Source: Enterobacter sp. JBIWA008
GTDB lineage: Bacteria; Pseudomonadota; Gammaproteobacteria; Enterobacterales; Enterobacteriaceae
Direction of reading: 5' to 3'
DNA length: 64,000 bases
Assembly: GCF_019968765.1 (NCBI RefSeq)
Contig: NZ_CP074149.1
Location: 1,674,001-1,738,000 of the forward strand
This document shows, in pieces, positions 28,343 to 33,827 of this stretch. A program made the translations under genes and the position numbers. Position 1 is the stretch's first letter. Every line of letters starts with the position of its first letter. The notes beneath the pieces were generated by a model. The model did not search any database. It was not told the DNA's origin and worked only from the letters and a program-made list of their open reading frames with translations.

Positions 28343-28346
28343 GATA

Positions 28347-28386
28347 TAAACCCCAGCTTACTCGTTAAGCTGGGGTTTTTCTTTTT
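28347..28386 (+). terminator. Terminator of the first tRNA-Ser gene
   Basis: AACCCCAGCTTA-CTCG-TTAAGCTGGGGTT followed by TTTCTTTTT. It also lies at the 3' end of the convergent hydrolase gene. Confidence 0.9.
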
Positions 28387-28409
28387 GCGCTTATCTGTAA
28401 ACCTGACGT

Positions 28410-29246
28410 TTATGAACGGATAAACGCCAGAATGTCCGCATTAATGGTATCCGCATGGGTGGTGTGCATCCCGTGTGGGAAGCCCGGATAAATTTTCAGG
28501 ACGCTATTCGCCAGCAGCTTATCCTGCAGAAGGGCTGCATTCTTATAAGGCACGACCTGATCGTCGTCGCCCTGCAACACCAGAACGGGAACCGTGATGG
28601 TTTTCAAATCTTCCGTCTGGTCGGTCTCTGAAAACGCCTTAATCCCCTCATAGTGGGCCTTAGCGCTCCCGATCATCCCCTGACGCCACCAGTTCTGGAT
28701 CGTACCCTGCGAAACCTCGGCACCATCGCGATTAAATCCGTAGAAAGGACCGCTGGCAACGTCGAGATAAAACTGGGCGCGGTTAGCGGCCAGCGCTTTG
28801 CGGAAGCCGTCGAAAACCTCGATGGGCGTTCCGCCAGGATTATTGTCCGTTTTGACCATCAGCGGCGGCACGGCGCTGACGAGCACCGCTTTGGCAACGC
28901 GCCCCTGCGGTTGGCCGTACCGCGCAACATAGCGGGCGACCTGGCCGCCGCCGGTGGAGTGACCGACGTGCACGGCATTGTGCAGATCCAGGCTTTCAAC
29001 CACGGCCGACGCATCGGCCGCATAATGATCCATATCGTGGCCTTCACTCACCTGATCCGAACGCCCGTGACCGCGACGATCGATAGCGATAACGCGATAG
29101 CCTTCTGCGAGGAAGAAGAGCATCTGGTTATCCCAGTCATCGGCACTCAACGGCCAGCCGTGGTGGAAAACAATGGGTTGAGCCTCTTTTGGGCCCCAGT
29201 CTTTGTAGTAAATATTGACGCCGTCTTTCGTTGTTACGAATGCCAT
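28410..29246 (-). CDS. Alpha/beta hydrolase, non-heme chloroperoxidase-like
   Basis: A 278-residue cytosolic alpha/beta hydrolase. Nucleophile elbow GHSTGGG (Ser near residue 100), oxyanion [11 protein letters not shown], Asp in [11 protein letters not shown] and His in [10 protein letters not shown] complete the triad. The early part ([20 protein letters not shown]) is typical of cofactor-free haloperoxidase/esterase-type enzymes; the natural substrate is unknown. Start at 29246 follows AACAGAGGAGTCTGCAGT. It lies between the two tRNA-Ser genes, downstream of and parallel to the dlt-like operon, 254 nt from it. Confidence 0.85.
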
Positions 29247-29445
29247 ACTGCAGACTCCTCTGTTAAAGGCAACACGATCGCAGGCTAAGCGCACAGCAAA
29301 TCAGTAATGCCTTAATTAAGTTGGCTTTTTTCTGTTTCCCGTACCGACAGTACTCCTAAAGTGTAGGAGAAATAGTAAAAGCAGTCGGCTTCATTCCCGT
29401 GAAAGGGAGCAAGACAGCGCTCGGGCGGCTGGGGGAGAACGAATC

Positions 29446-29474
29446 AAGGCTTTGGAGAGATCCTCCAGAGCCTT
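29446..29474. other. Hairpin downstream of the dlt-like operon
   Basis: AAGGCTTTGGAG at 29446-29457 pairs with CTCCAGAGCCTT (one G-U type mismatch) across a short AGAT-type loop. There is no U run on the minus strand, so it may protect the 3' end rather than terminate. It separates the acyl-carrier gene from the hydrolase. Confidence 0.5.
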
Positions 29475-29500
29475 CAGGGCAGGATTAACAGCAGGGGCGT

Positions 29501-29719
29501 TTAGCGGTTTTCTTCAATATAGCGTGCCAGGTCCGCCGGGGTTTTCAGCACCGTCGCCACGTCAGTCGGCGGGATCATACAGCCGTAAACGTCCTGCACT
29601 TCCAGCACCATATCGACTGCCAGGATGGAGTCGAGAATGTCGGATTCAATCAGTTCATCGTGAAAGCCCACCTTACGGGATAACACTTTTTCGAACAGGG
29701 CGAGAATTTCTTGTTCCAT
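29501..29719 (-). CDS. DltC-like acyl carrier protein
   Basis: A 72-residue acidic carrier protein. The 4'-phosphopantetheine site is Ser31 in ESDILDSILAVDMVLEV, the DSxxxVD form seen in DltC. It would carry an activated acyl or aminoacyl group from the DltA-like ligase to the DltB-like transferase. Start at 29719 is chosen because CAGGAAAAATT precedes it; an alternative ATG at 29737 overlaps the DltA-like stop (TAATG). It is the last gene of the operon. Confidence 0.85.
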   Translation of the reverse strand: MEQEILALFEKVLSRKVGFHDELIESDILDSILAVDMVLEVQDVYGCMIPPTDVATVLKTPADLARYIEENR

Positions 29720-29736
29720 AATTTTTCCTGGAGTCA

Positions 29737-31170
29737 TTAATTTGTGCGGGCGTAAGCGTCCAGCAGCTTGCGGTCAATTTTGCCGTTAGGATTCAGCGGC
29801 AAAGCGTCTTTTACGATAATTTGTGAAGGCACCATATAGTGCGGCACCACCTTCGACAGCGATGTTTTGATGGTATCCGGCGCCATATCGGTCACGCAGA
29901 ACGCGGCAATGCGCAGCACGCTGCCGCAGGATTTCATCAGCGGCAGAACCACCGCTTCGTTGATGCCGGACATGGCCAGCAGACGGTTTTCAATCTCATT
30001 GATTTCAATGCGATAGCCGTTCAGCTTGACCTGGCTATCGTTGCGGCCCTGGCAATAGATAAGCCCCGCTTCATAGCCCAGATCGCCGGTCCGGTAGCCG
30101 CGAAACGCTTCATTTTCCCGACGGAGTAATTTTTCCGCGTTCTCATGCGGCAGGCCGAGGTAGCCGCGCATGACGTTTTTACCCCAGATAATCAGCTCGC
30201 CCTCGGCGGAAATTTCCATTTTGCTCTCAGGCATCATGACCCCCACCGGCAGCACGGCGCTGTCGCTGTTCAGGATCTCATCGGTGATTTCAACCACGGT
30301 CGTCGCGATGGTCGCTTCCGTTGGGCCATAGGAGTTGATGATTTTGGCCTGCGGGAAACGGCGGCGAAGCTGTTTAACCAGCGCCTTATTTAACACTTCA
30401 CCAATGAAGATAAAGACGTTGAGCGCAGGCAAATACTCGCTGTTGAACTGCGGGGAAAGCAGCTGCTGGTACGCAAAAGAGGGGGTTGAAACCCAGGCGG
30501 AGACCGCGTTGCTTTTCAGTCGCTCCAGCCAGTTCTCTTTCTGAATATCCTCTTTGGCGTTCAGCACGATATGCCCGCCCATCGCCAGATTCGCCAGCAA
30601 AGGGATCAGGGAGAGGTCAAAACTGAATACCGCGTGGTTCATCAGGACCGGTTTTTCCGGCAGTGAAAAGTCCCGGCTGACCCATTTCATGAAGTGCCAT
30701 ACGCTTTCACGCCCAATCTGCACGCCTTTAGGTTTACCGGTGCTGCCTGAGGTAAACATGATGTAGGCCAGATCCTGCTCCTCCAGCACCTTGCCCGCTT
30801 CGCCGGTGGCGATGAACTGCCGGGTTGCGACGTCGTAATAGTAAGGGGCACTGGCCAGATGGCAGATCTCCCGGAGGCGCTCCTGCGGGTAGATGCAGTC
30901 CACCGGTATGTACGGAATGTTGTGCAGCAGGCAGCTATAAATCGCCACGGCGAACTCGGCCTGCTGGTGTCCGTACAAGACGAGCGGCGTACCGGCAACA
31001 GGCTGGCAGCGCTGGTAGCGCTGTGCCCAGTCCGTCACGGCAGCAGAAAGCTGTAGCCAGCTTAAGGCTTCGTCGCTGCCGCTGATGGCCGGCTGCTGCG
31101 GGGAGGCGGGATCGCATAATGCCGCACGTAGGAAATCGTGCATTTCCTGAAGATCGGAGTGATTTTTCAT
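29737..31170 (-). CDS. DltA-like adenylating ligase
   Basis: A 477-residue adenylate-forming enzyme. Motif A3 YIMFTSGSTGKPKGV lies at about 136-150, NSYGPTEATIATT at about 279-291 and YRTGDLGYE at about 359-367. VKLNGYRIEINEIE lies at 381-394, and the catalytic lysine is in PNGKIDRK near the C-terminus. It would adenylate an amino acid or small acid and load the adjacent carrier protein. D-alanine is the substrate of Gram-positive DltA; the substrate here cannot be read from sequence. It overlaps the DltB-like gene by 4 nt. Confidence 0.85.
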   Translation of the reverse strand: MKNHSDLQEMHDFLRAALCDPASPQQPAISGSDEALSWLQLSAAVTDWAQRYQRCQPVAGTPLVLYGHQQAEFAVAIYSCLLHNIPYIPVDCIYPQERLREICHLASAPYYYDVATRQFIATGEAGKVLEEQDLAYIMFTSGSTGKPKGVQIGRESVWHFMKWVSRDFSLPEKPVLMNHAVFSFDLSLIPLLANLAMGGHIVLNAKEDIQKENWLERLKSNAVSAWVSTPSFAYQQLLSPQFNSEYLPALNVFIFIGEVLNKALVKQLRRRFPQAKIINSYGPTEATIATTVVEITDEILNSDSAVLPVGVMMPESKMEISAEGELIIWGKNVMRGYLGLPHENAEKLLRRENEAFRGYRTGDLGYEAGLIYCQGRNDSQVKLNGYRIEINEIENRLLAMSGINEAVVLPLMKSCGSVLRIAAFCVTDMAPDTIKTSLSKVVPHYMVPSQIIVKDALPLNPNGKIDRKLLDAYARTN

Positions 31171-32288
31171 AGAGGTGACATTCCACTAAAGATGTAAAGG
31201 GATCCCGCGGCGCTTCCCAGCGTCAGAATGCGTCCCAAAAACGCAACGGCCGGATACTGCAGGCCGCGGTGCAATGCCGGGCTGCGTTTGGCTGACCACA
31301 GCAGCATGTTGTGGGCGACGGAAATCGCGCCAAACAGCGCGCCGCTGATGACGTAATGGCGTTCCAGGCCATTCCATGCCCCCATGCAGAATAAGGTGCA
31401 AAAAATCCCGATATTTTGCGCCAGCGTTTTGTTCTGACGGAAAAAGTTGAATTTCATCAGGTTCATATAAACGGGCATAAAGACCACATCGCGCAGCCAT
31501 TCAGACAGGCTGATGTGGAAGCGGCGCCAGAAATCCTGCGGGTTCTTTGCCAGAAGCGGCATGTTGAAGTTTGCCGGAATGTTGAGCCCAAACAGGCGGC
31601 CCGCGCCGATGGCCATATTGCTGTAGCCCGCAAAATCAAAGTACAGGTAGGTGCTGTAGGCAATCGACATCACCACGCCCATGGTCAGCGTAAACGGCTT
31701 ATGGCTCCAGGGCTGCACGACAAGCGAATCAATCAGCATGGCAAACAGGAACTTCTGGACAATGCCGGTAATGATTTGCTCTAACGCGACTAAAAACTGT
31801 TCACGGTTAAGGGCAAATACGGGCTTGCTTACGTCACTCATCCATGTCCGCCAGCGGTACATTGGGCCGGCCAGGATAATAAAGGGCATAAAAAGATAGC
31901 AGAAATAGTGCAGGAAATTCTGCCCTTCTTTTTTACTGCGATAGAGCAGCACGTCCACCGCGCGAAACGTCATAAAAGAGAGGCCGATCATGCCCCAGTG
32001 GTTATTTAAATGCAGTTTCACTAAAAATAAGGGCAGCAACGTTAAAATGATTGCCTGCCAGGTTTTTAACCATCCCTTCTCTTTTAGCGTGGCGAAAACA
32101 TAAAAACTGAAAAAAACGGCTGCGGGAACAAGGTAATCACCCTGAAAAATATAGCCCCAGCCCAATGCGGCCAGGACGGATAGCGCCGATAAATAAGTCA
32201 GACGATGGCGTAATACGCGATTGACCAGCGCAAACGCCAGGGCGGATGAAAACAAATAAACAAAAAACATTCCTGAGCTGTACATCAT
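31167..32288 (-). CDS. DltB-like MBOAT transferase
   Basis: A 373-residue polytopic membrane protein of the membrane-bound O-acyltransferase family, with about ten hydrophobic segments. The MBOAT signature is at about 252-271 (DFWRRFHISLSEWLRDVVF), and the catalytic His is in GAWNGLERHYVISG (His311). It would receive the acyl group from the carrier on the cytosolic side and pass it across the membrane, in Gram-positives via DltX to DltD. It lies 6 nt after the microprotein gene and overlaps the ligase gene. Confidence 0.87.
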   Translation of the reverse strand: MMYSSGMFFVYLFSSALAFALVNRVLRHRLTYLSALSVLAALGWGYIFQGDYLVPAAVFFSFYVFATLKEKGWLKTWQAIILTLLPLFLVKLHLNNHWGMIGLSFMTFRAVDVLLYRSKKEGQNFLHYFCYLFMPFIILAGPMYRWRTWMSDVSKPVFALNREQFLVALEQIITGIVQKFLFAMLIDSLVVQPWSHKPFTLTMGVVMSIAYSTYLYFDFAGYSNMAIGAGRLFGLNIPANFNMPLLAKNPQDFWRRFHISLSEWLRDVVFMPVYMNLMKFNFFRQNKTLAQNIGIFCTLFCMGAWNGLERHYVISGALFGAISVAHNMLLWSAKRSPALHRGLQYPAVAFLGRILTLGSAAGSLYIFSGMSPL

Positions 32289-32294
32289 TCGGCC

Positions 32295-32414
32295 TCAGAA
32301 TTTTTGATATTCAAAATGCAGCTGCATACTCATGCTGTCATCGACAGAGGTCCACGCGACGATGGTGATCGCCAGCAGGAGATAAAGGAAAAAAAGACGG
32401 ATCGCGATTTTCAT
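32295..32414 (-). CDS. 39-residue DltX-like membrane microprotein
   Basis: Start overlaps the DltD-like stop (TAATG); stop is 6 nt before the DltB-like start. The product has a basic N-terminus, one membrane helix (IRLFFLYLLLAITIVAW, about residues 5-21), a short exposed segment and ends exactly in LHFEYQKF. The final hexapeptide FEYQKF fits the FxYxxF C-terminal motif I recall for Gram-positive DltX, whose tyrosine is proposed to carry the D-alanyl group between DltB and DltD. The product is small enough for gene callers to miss. Assignment rests on size, topology, position and this motif. Confidence 0.8.
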   Translation of the reverse strand: MKIAIRLFFLYLLLAITIVAWTSVDDSMSMQLHFEYQKF

Positions 32415-33553
32415 TATTTAAAGCTCTGTGCAATAAAGCGGATCATAGGAACCCAGGCCAGTTCGGAAGGGTGCAAACGATCCCAGTTCCAGCCATTTTG
32501 ATAAGGCATGGCGTACATATCTAAATAAGGGATCTGGTTCTTTTCCAGAATGGTTTTAATTTGCTTATCAACCGGGCGGAAGGTATCGGTATTGTAAAGC
32601 GCCCAGGGGTTAACCGGGTCGACGATAGCAATCACCTGCACGTGACGTTCTTTCAGCAGCTGGACGGTTTTACTGAACGCGGCGATTTGCGCAGGTACGA
32701 CCGGCGTGTCATCCCACTGTTGCCGCGTACCGTCCTCTTCGTAAATCGTTTTGTCCATCCACAGGGTGGCCGCGCTCTGCTGGCGTTTTTTATTTAACTC
32801 GCGAGCATTCGCCAGCTCTTTATCCCAGTCAGAGGTAATATGCGTGGCTGGCTGCTGCGGCCAGGGTTGGACCGTCTGGGGCGTAAGGTGAAGCAGCGCC
32901 AGCCAGTCGTTTTTTATCTGGGTGCAGACGTTGGCAAACTGGAAGCTCACCTCGTCCCATATCAGGTCGGGGTGCCAGCCAAAGACGCGCATTTGGCCAA
33001 AGGTTAAATGGCTTATTTCTTTACTATCAATATGCTTTAAATAATTAACCAGCAGAGGGCGCGCCTGCGGATCCTTCATCAGCGGATTAAAAATAGAGCC
33101 GGGGAAATTATCGGCATAGATAGCCGGTGGCAGCCCTTTTGAGTAAAAGCTGTCAGGTGCCAGAAGCAAAACAACTTTACTGTTTGCGTTAAGGCTATTT
33201 TTAAAACGTGAGAACAGTAAAAATTGCGTTTCATCATCGACGAACGCATCGCCATACGCCACGACGGGTTCGTGCAATTGCTTATTAAAGTAATTATATA
33301 CAGCGTAATGTTCATCTTCTGAGGTGGCCACCTCAGAGGCGCCAATGAAGAAAATAGCATTCCCTTCTAAGGCATGGGAAATAGTCGCAATTTTTTCCGC
33401 TTGTTCTTTAGGCGTGCCCGACATTGATTTAATCAGCGGCTGGAAGGTGAGGGGCGGATTGAAGCTCGTCACCAGCGGGTGAACGCAGAGGAACAAAATG
33501 GCCAGTGTCGCCATCAGAATATGTAAGCAAAGCGTATTTTTGATTTTCATCAT
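32414..33553 (-). CDS. DltD-like membrane-anchored SGNH/GDSL-type protein
   Basis: A 379-residue protein with one N-terminal membrane anchor (LCLHILMATLAILFLCVHPL) and a large extracytoplasmic domain. The catalytic-type serine is in IFFIGASEV (Ser near 73), and the Asp-His pair is in WDRLHPSELAW near the C-terminus, as in DltD (GxSE ... DxxHP). It would transfer the acyl group to the final envelope acceptor. Start uncertain: 33553, 33550 or 33571 are possible. It is the first gene of the D-X-B-A-C operon. Confidence 0.82.
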   Translation of the reverse strand: MMKIKNTLCLHILMATLAILFLCVHPLVTSFNPPLTFQPLIKSMSGTPKEQAEKIATISHALEGNAIFFIGASEVATSEDEHYAVYNYFNKQLHEPVVAYGDAFVDDETQFLLFSRFKNSLNANSKVVLLLAPDSFYSKGLPPAIYADNFPGSIFNPLMKDPQARPLLVNYLKHIDSKEISHLTFGQMRVFGWHPDLIWDEVSFQFANVCTQIKNDWLALLHLTPQTVQPWPQQPATHITSDWDKELANARELNKKRQQSAATLWMDKTIYEEDGTRQQWDDTPVVPAQIAAFSKTVQLLKERHVQVIAIVDPVNPWALYNTDTFRPVDKQIKTILEKNQIPYLDMYAMPYQNGWNWDRLHPSELAWVPMIRFIAQSFK

Positions 33554-33786
33554 CAACCAGTAACACTGCATGGCAGTAATTTCTAAAATCTGTGGGTACT
33601 CAGATTTATAACAATTACACAACAAATGACCGTTTATTTTTGTGGCATTCTATACCAGAGCGATTTAAAAGGATGAGCGTTGCTATGTTACGGTATGTAC
33701 AAGTCAGCCGAGACCGATGCGCGGTAAGTACCTGAGTGATTTTTGCGCAGTCAAACGCCAGTGGGTAAAAATAGAAAAATTCCTGC

Positions 33787-33815
33787 TTTACAAGGCGCTA
33801 ATAGATGTTTATAGT
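33787..33815 (+). promoter_or_regulatory. Promoter of the second tRNA-Ser(UGA) gene
   Basis: -35 TTTACA at 33787-33792, 17-nt spacer, -10 TATAGT at 33810-33815, then GCGCCTCACT. Hexamers, spacer length and discriminator copy those of the first tRNA-Ser gene. Confidence 0.82.
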
Positions 33816-33827
33816 GCGCCTCACTTT

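Follow-up and report, generated by a model that had tools for sequence, protein, structure and literature searches.

Does an operon of dlt genes in a Gram-negative bacterium carry its own small acyl shuttle, comparable to the DltX protein of Bacillota? This question is raised by a short frame lying between a dltD-like and a dltB-like gene in the window, i.e., the whole 64,000-nucleotide stretch of Enterobacter sp. JBIWA008 DNA analysed here (contig NZ_CP074149.1). An earlier note on this DNA had described the frame as a hidden DltX-like microprotein and had suggested that the tyrosine relay is conserved beyond Gram-positives. Our comparisons of sequences and loci point to a stand-alone, DltX-like acyl-tyrosine shuttle that would serve DltA, DltC, DltB and DltD, a reading to which we assign a probability of about 0.86. 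The features on which the analysis centres are collected in Table 1.

Table 1. Features of the dlt segment and its flanks, in window coordinates.
Feature	Coordinates	Strand	Evidence
DltX-like microprotein, 39 aa	32295..32414	-	frame and translation, conservation, dN/dS
DltD-like SGNH transferase	32414..33571	-	PF04914 E=7.5e-22; Ser/Asp/His columns conserved
DltB-like MBOAT, 373 aa	31167..32288	-	PF03062 E=1.1e-11; aligned to 6bug/8jem
DltA-like adenylation enzyme, 477 aa	29737..31170	-	TIGR01734 E=2.4e-111, below cut-off
DltC-like carrier protein	29501..29719	-	PF00550 E=5.9e-9
tRNA-Ser(TGA), left flank of dlt segment	28255..28342	+	ARAGORN
tRNA-Ser(TGA), right flank of dlt segment	33828..33915	+	ARAGORN; 85/88 bases identical to left copy

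The 39-codon frame was found on the minus strand between dltD and dltB, at the coordinates given in the earlier note (32414-32295), and its translation is MKIAIRLFFLYLLLAITIVAWTSVDDSMSMQLHFEYQKF followed by a stop codon. Both of the tight junctions previously described are present in the sequence: the ATG of the microprotein has one base in common with the dltD stop codon (TAATG), and its TGA, ending at 32295, is separated by 6 nt from the dltB ATG at 32288. The prediction of one membrane helix agrees with the hydropathy profile (mean of 2.36 over the best 19-residue stretch), and the distribution of charges suggests an N-in orientation. The C-terminal hexapeptide FEYQKF fits F-x-Y-x-x-F, with its tyrosine four from the end, and we propose this residue, Tyr36, as the putative acyl carrier. 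The single tyrosine of the earlier note is that of the hexapeptide; the protein has a second one, Tyr11 in the helix, which is itself nearly invariant among 33 aligned frames. The frame is the sole one ending in [FY]xYxxF among the 753 window ORFs of at least 25 aa. It matched no NCBIfam model and gave one unrelated, below-threshold match in Pfam. It is not fully hidden: two RefSeq plasmid copies annotate a homologue as 'hypothetical protein' (WP_255423173.1). Promoter-like sites numbered 2 vs 4.3 in shuffles, and terminator-like sites 13 vs 5.8.

The neighbouring proteins match the DltD, MBOAT, AMP-binding and PP-binding families of Pfam, and thus the microprotein is encoded together with DltA, DltB, DltC and DltD. 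The DltB-like protein passes PF03062 with 45 bits against a cut-off of 27, i.e., it is an MBOAT by sequence, and the DltA-like protein aligns with PDB 3e7w (E=1.7e-78). The NCBIfam equivalog models of DltA, B, C and D all match the window proteins, each below its cut-off (for DltB, TIGR04091 gives 193.5 bits of the 375 needed), which indicates that this set has diverged from that of Bacillota. As for gene starts, the dltD ORF opens at TTG 33625, and one of the in-frame ATGs at 33571, 33553 or 33550 is the likelier start; dltC, whose product has a predicted phosphopantetheine Ser31, has a further in-frame ATG at 29737.

A rival reading takes the frame for a chance or decaying ORF within a transferred operon. 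In its favour, the frame is short and matches no family model, and the operon is patchy, with a close full-length DltB match in the own genome and in 8/23 other same-genus genomes. No match to the dlt DNA was obtained in E. coli genomes. We sampled 94 loci, partly near-copies, drawing on DltB matches in 12/40 relative genomes, on a scan of a genome collection (at least 591 pattern matches, 512 confirmed, the best 80 of the 512 kept as loci) and on two plasmid copies, taken from three plasmid records at 80-90% identity. A frame ending in [FY]xYxxF (hereafter X) was detected upstream of dltB in 86/94 loci. Such a frame, on whose conservation the earlier note had staked its proposal, stands upstream of dltB in 84 of the 86 loci with a DltB of the window's type (N-type, carrying Asn306), the other two (L065 and L085) being cut by contig edges. 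Besides these two, an upstream frame was missing from L010 and L012, in which the motif is fused to a long MBOAT; from L011, which is only a partial frame, lying where a contig ends; from L089, a Clostridium locus with a DltX-like shuttle frame downstream; from L087, a Clostridia MAG with A-B-C-D present, where no shuttle frame was found; and from L091 (Verrucomicrobia), where neither a shuttle frame nor DltA, DltC or DltD was found.

Since the motif was the detection rule for X, the invariance of the tyrosine among the X frames follows from selection of the frames. What is independent of this rule is that a frame of this kind was present in each N-type locus whose upstream sequence is available. 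Moreover, the 94 loci hold 9,252 ORFs of 25 aa or more (X frames counted; not independent trials, because some loci are near-copies), and only three of these besides X end in the motif, namely the two fused MBOAT C-termini (L010, L012) and the Clostridium frame (L089), all of which resemble genuine shuttle motifs. Comparison with 18 relatives, restricted to the final 37 codons, gave dN/dS of 0.04-0.27 in 15 cases; in two of the remaining three no amino acid was changed, and in the third dS was saturated. By these sequence measures the microprotein gene is conserved and under purifying selection. The frame occurs in Enterobacteriaceae, Pectobacteriaceae, Photorhabdus and Alcaligenaceae as well as in Campylobacterota, Bacteroidota and Chlorobiota, in the last three phyla often in MAGs. 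This breadth largely refutes a chance ORF, and with the ORF control and the low dN/dS we reject that explanation as very improbable. One record, L026, bears the label Chryseobacterium, although its dlt locus is Enterobacteriaceae-like and groups with Enterobacteriaceae; it is probably a contamination and was kept in the counts.

The 84 frames comprise 61 distinct sequences over their last 36 residues and end mostly in FEYQKF (25), FQYQQF (23) or FVYQQF (14), with nine rarer forms. In all 84 loci X stands between D and B, accompanied in L071 by dltC. The prevailing gene orders are C-D-X-B-A (43 loci), D-X-B-A-C (21) and D-X-B-A (13, in which C was not found or lies past the locus end); the rarer ones are C-D-X-B (1), D-C-X-B-A (1, L071) and an order printed as CDBXA (5). 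The last is an effect of reading dltB from stop to stop, which places the opening of its frame upstream of X; in these five loci the first start past X yields a DltB of 375 residues.

The dlt segment lies between two tRNA-Ser(TGA) genes. Both copies are present in 13 chosen genomes (our own and 12 of the same genus), about 0.2 kb apart in four of them (G004, G009, G010, G014), with dlt between them in three (G000, G013, G019) and with other spacers of about 1.3-7 kb in six; the twin tRNA genes thus bound a cargo hotspot. The same flanks were seen in L013 (E. asburiae) and in 0/15 other scanned loci. The segment between the tRNAs (28343-33827) has a G+C of 0.518 vs 0.564 for the window, in line with horizontal gain. 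A dlt set with X is also found between IS elements on plasmids of Klebsiella electrica (L094, NZ_CP041250.1) and Enterobacter cloacae (L095, NZ_CP071862.1), typed as non-mobilizable and conjugative, respectively. An alpha/beta-hydrolase gene (28410-29294) shares the inter-tRNA segment; a link to dlt was rejected, as the gene recurs in only one other searched locus (L013), the same-genus loci other than L013 not being counted because L001-L009 span only about 4.1 kb apiece, not enough to reveal it.

Any kinship of the microprotein with DltX of Bacillota would be remote. It gave no match to the Pfam DltX family PF12459 even at E<=10 (gathering cut-off 25 bits) and is not assigned to it; across its own genome no frame exceeded the cut-off, and a single 11.7-bit match was located elsewhere. 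Among the 33 members of the microprotein set, four match PF12459 at E<=10, and of ten members tested singly only one from Verrucomicrobiota (L088) exceeded the cut-off, with 28.8 bits. A profile of the Gram-negative frames, whose score includes a contribution from the hexapeptide, was run on 2,095 frames from Bacillota and Verrucomicrobiota loci. Of the 25 best matches, the first was a DltX-type frame from Niallia that carries no annotation (E=7.8e-5) and the second the annotated DltX of Enterococcus casseliflavus (E=4.8e-4); two further Bacillota DltX ranked 7th and 10th, behind noise (E=0.63 and 0.94), and the shuttle frames of L088, L089, L092 and L099 were absent. A profile of the microprotein set matched no DltX chain in PDB, which may contain none. 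We read the Gram-negative frames as putative remote homologues of Bacillota DltX, with less confidence for the set as a whole. On a Limosilactobacillus oris plasmid (L097, 1777-1926) an unlabelled frame ending in FIYNEF precedes dltA, in a record without dltX annotation.

The partner of the microprotein is unusual in its own right. Aligned with S. thermophilus DltB (6bug/8jem), the window DltB has His258 in the place of His289, Asn306 in that of His336 and Ser315 in the column of Tyr345, a residue that forms a hydrogen bond with the inhibitor m-AMSA. All 101 aligned DltB-like sequences have His at column 258; at column 306, 86 have Asn and 15 have His. Asn306 and Ser315 occur together in 86/86 sequences of the window's type and in 0/12 from Bacillota or Verrucomicrobiota, all 12 of which carry His and Tyr at these columns (three fused or partial sequences are omitted from this comparison). 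The pocket residues Trp254, Trp305, Tyr222 and Asp218 are identical in both groups, as is Phe219 in all but one sequence. In a tree of 49 rows drawn from the 101, the Asn group falls on one side of a branch with support of 97/96. A protein search returned Asn in 106/107 readable rows and Asp in one (P0077); one of the Asn proteins, P0121, is sourced to a 'Bacillota bacterium' MAG, hence the Asn type is not strictly Gram-negative. As a control, we collected MBOAT matches at E<=1e-8, found in 58/150 genomes of the phylum; 30 loci were fetched, and all 28 readable MBOATs have the His and end in a fused tail of the form F-[IL]-Y-x-x-F. A shuttle fused to the window DltB was ruled out by its C-terminus (...FSGMSPL). 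A second MBOAT supplying the function was rejected too, since the genome gives a single match to PF03062 at E<=1e-8.

His336 of S. thermophilus DltB has been termed invariant (PMC11035591), and the equivalent His is described as universal in MBOATs and as required in PatA and DltB (PMC12148441). The window DltB is thus, as far as its sequence tells, an MBOAT without the textbook active-site histidine, and hence we are not dealing simply with the Gram-positive relay transplanted. For eukaryotic MBOATs, PMC11035591 describes a His on TM7 and, at the position of His289, either Asn or Asp. We propose, by analogy, that the window enzyme may be a mirror image of this arrangement, in which His258 would act as the base and Asn306 as a polar helper that orients or polarises. 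More broadly, we consider it somewhat better than an even bet that a mostly Gram-negative clade of Dlt MBOATs transfers acyl groups without the 'universal' His: His258 would stay on the horizontal helix, Asn306 would lie on TM7, Ser315 would replace Tyr, a different base would be used and the acceptor tyrosine would reside on a separate microprotein, the cargo of the Enterobacter branch perhaps being other than D-alanine. The Asn-type enzymes are probably not dead, because a dltB mutant of D. dadantii is reported to suffer 99% mortality under polymyxin (PMC3544676) and other Dickeya DltBs, i.e., all those sampled (L024, P0008, P0010; D. dadantii itself is outside the sample), are N-type.

In the remaining Dlt proteins the functional residues tested are kept. 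Counted over filled rows, which include the window and the Bacillota references, DltA has its Asp in 92/92 (Asp185 in the window) and DltD its Ser in 90/90, His in 92/92 and Asp in 91/92, and the DltC Ser is present in 80/80 aligned rows; hence the steps of activation, loading of the carrier and final transfer seem unimpaired. The column of DltA Cys269, which we take to set the D-Ala preference in Bacillota, is more variable: among 93 filled rows it holds Cys in 45, Ile in 35, Met in nine and Ala in four. Ile, which the window protein has as Ile256, is found in 32/32 rows of Enterobacteriaceae/Pectobacteriaceae type and in three of Bacteroidota, and the nine Met rows are Bacteroidota. Possibly, then, the same relay carries something other than D-alanine in the Enterobacter/Pectobacterium group, a suggestion compatible with the shuttle that we hold only tentatively and consider the less probable case: it is opposed by the overall similarity of the window protein to DltA, by the fully kept Asp column and by Photorhabdus and Alcaligenaceae DltA, which keep Cys.

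How would such a shuttle work? DltA would activate the amino acid, presumably D-alanine, and load it onto DltC; DltB, acting through the membrane, would transfer the acyl group to Tyr36 on the periplasmic tail of the microprotein; the tail would then swing to DltD, whose serine would accept the group and deliver it to an acceptor in the envelope, with the effect that negative charge is masked. The topology, the acyl-tyrosine and the identities of acyl group and acceptor are what we infer for this relay. Conservation of the frame, its place upstream of dltB and behind dltD, the constant spacing of the tail and the intact DltA, DltC and DltD residues all fit it. Counting against it are the missing PF12459 match, the low rank of the further Bacillota DltX in the profile search and the lack in the window DltB of the His that PatA and DltB are reported to need (PMC12148441).

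The loss of that histidine also speaks for a different role, in which the microprotein would do no more than hold DltB and DltD together as a tether, the acyl group being passed directly from the one to the other and the tyrosine serving in packing. A single helix with a short tail would suffice for this purpose, and a regulatory role of DltD and DltX helices has been discussed (PMC11035591). Nevertheless, we regard a mere tether as improbable, as the tail segment preceding the hexapeptide varies and the hexapeptide recurs (in frames selected by the motif), the readable fused MBOATs retain the same hexapeptide without exception, and the tyrosine of PatA is described as acetylated (PMC12148441). 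The proposal that the tyrosine relay extends beyond Gram-positives is supported, with two qualifications. In favour of it stand the conserved frame, its fixed place, the intact partner residues and a profile that reaches two Bacillota DltX; on the other side, the chemistry is not new, having been described for PatA (PMC12148441), and the DltB lacks the MBOAT His. If the stand-alone acyl-tyrosine shuttle is true, it supplies a missing relay part to Gram-negative dlt operons.

Both an acyl-tyrosine relay in Gram-negatives, in its fused form, and dlt in Gram-negatives are already known; the stand-alone shuttle in Gram-negative dlt operons and a clade of MBOATs in which Asn takes the place of the universal His were not found in print among the papers surveyed, which did not include the founding paper on the DltX mechanism (Schultz et al. 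2023). A Gram-negative stand-alone shuttle would widen the view given in PMC12148441, where stand-alone DltX is known from teichoic-acid D-alanylation and the tail is fused elsewhere, and the His-less DltB contradicts the statement printed there that a single His is found in all MBOATs. In Dickeya, dltB mutation lowers polymyxin tolerance (PMC3544676); the same paper states that Gram-negatives are devoid of teichoic acids and that the dlt substrate had yet to be identified. One acceptor put forward is LPS (PMC5541007 citing Pandin 2016; PMC10931765), and in Bordetella the dra locus reportedly places D-alanine on the outer membrane (PMC4448142, PMC9858536). A natural His-less MBOAT with its acceptor tyrosine on a separate 39-residue chain would offer a compact test case for transmembrane acyl passage.

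Among the known systems that resemble the window set, the loci named dlt or dra in Dickeya, Pectobacterium, Photorhabdus and Bordetella belong to the same operon family, and we found the X frame in loci of all four genera. Polymyxin and AMP phenotypes are reported for these loci (PMC3544676; PMC4448142 citing Taneja 2013), and the main text of PMC3544676 names dltD and dltBAC without 'dltX', whereas the frame is present in our Dickeya loci. PatA/PatB and the AlgI-type MBOAT-SGNH systems share with the window the hexapeptide and an SGNH partner, but their motif forms the C-terminus of a longer MBOAT (459-827 aa in frame length, 28/28 readable), which keeps the His where the window DltB has Asn, and the donor described for PatA is acetyl-CoA rather than a carrier protein (PMC12148441). 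DltX of Bacillota (PF12459; S. aureus, B. thuringiensis) is, like the window microprotein with its one predicted helix, a tiny single-helix protein with a C-terminal [FY]-x-Y-x-x-F, encoded with dlt genes and paired with a DltB without a fused tail. It differs in its place, as it precedes dltA in the three records with annotation, whereas the Gram-negative X lies directly before dltB and behind dltD, and in its partner, since the window DltB has Asn and Ser in place of His336 and Tyr345 (S. thermophilus numbering).
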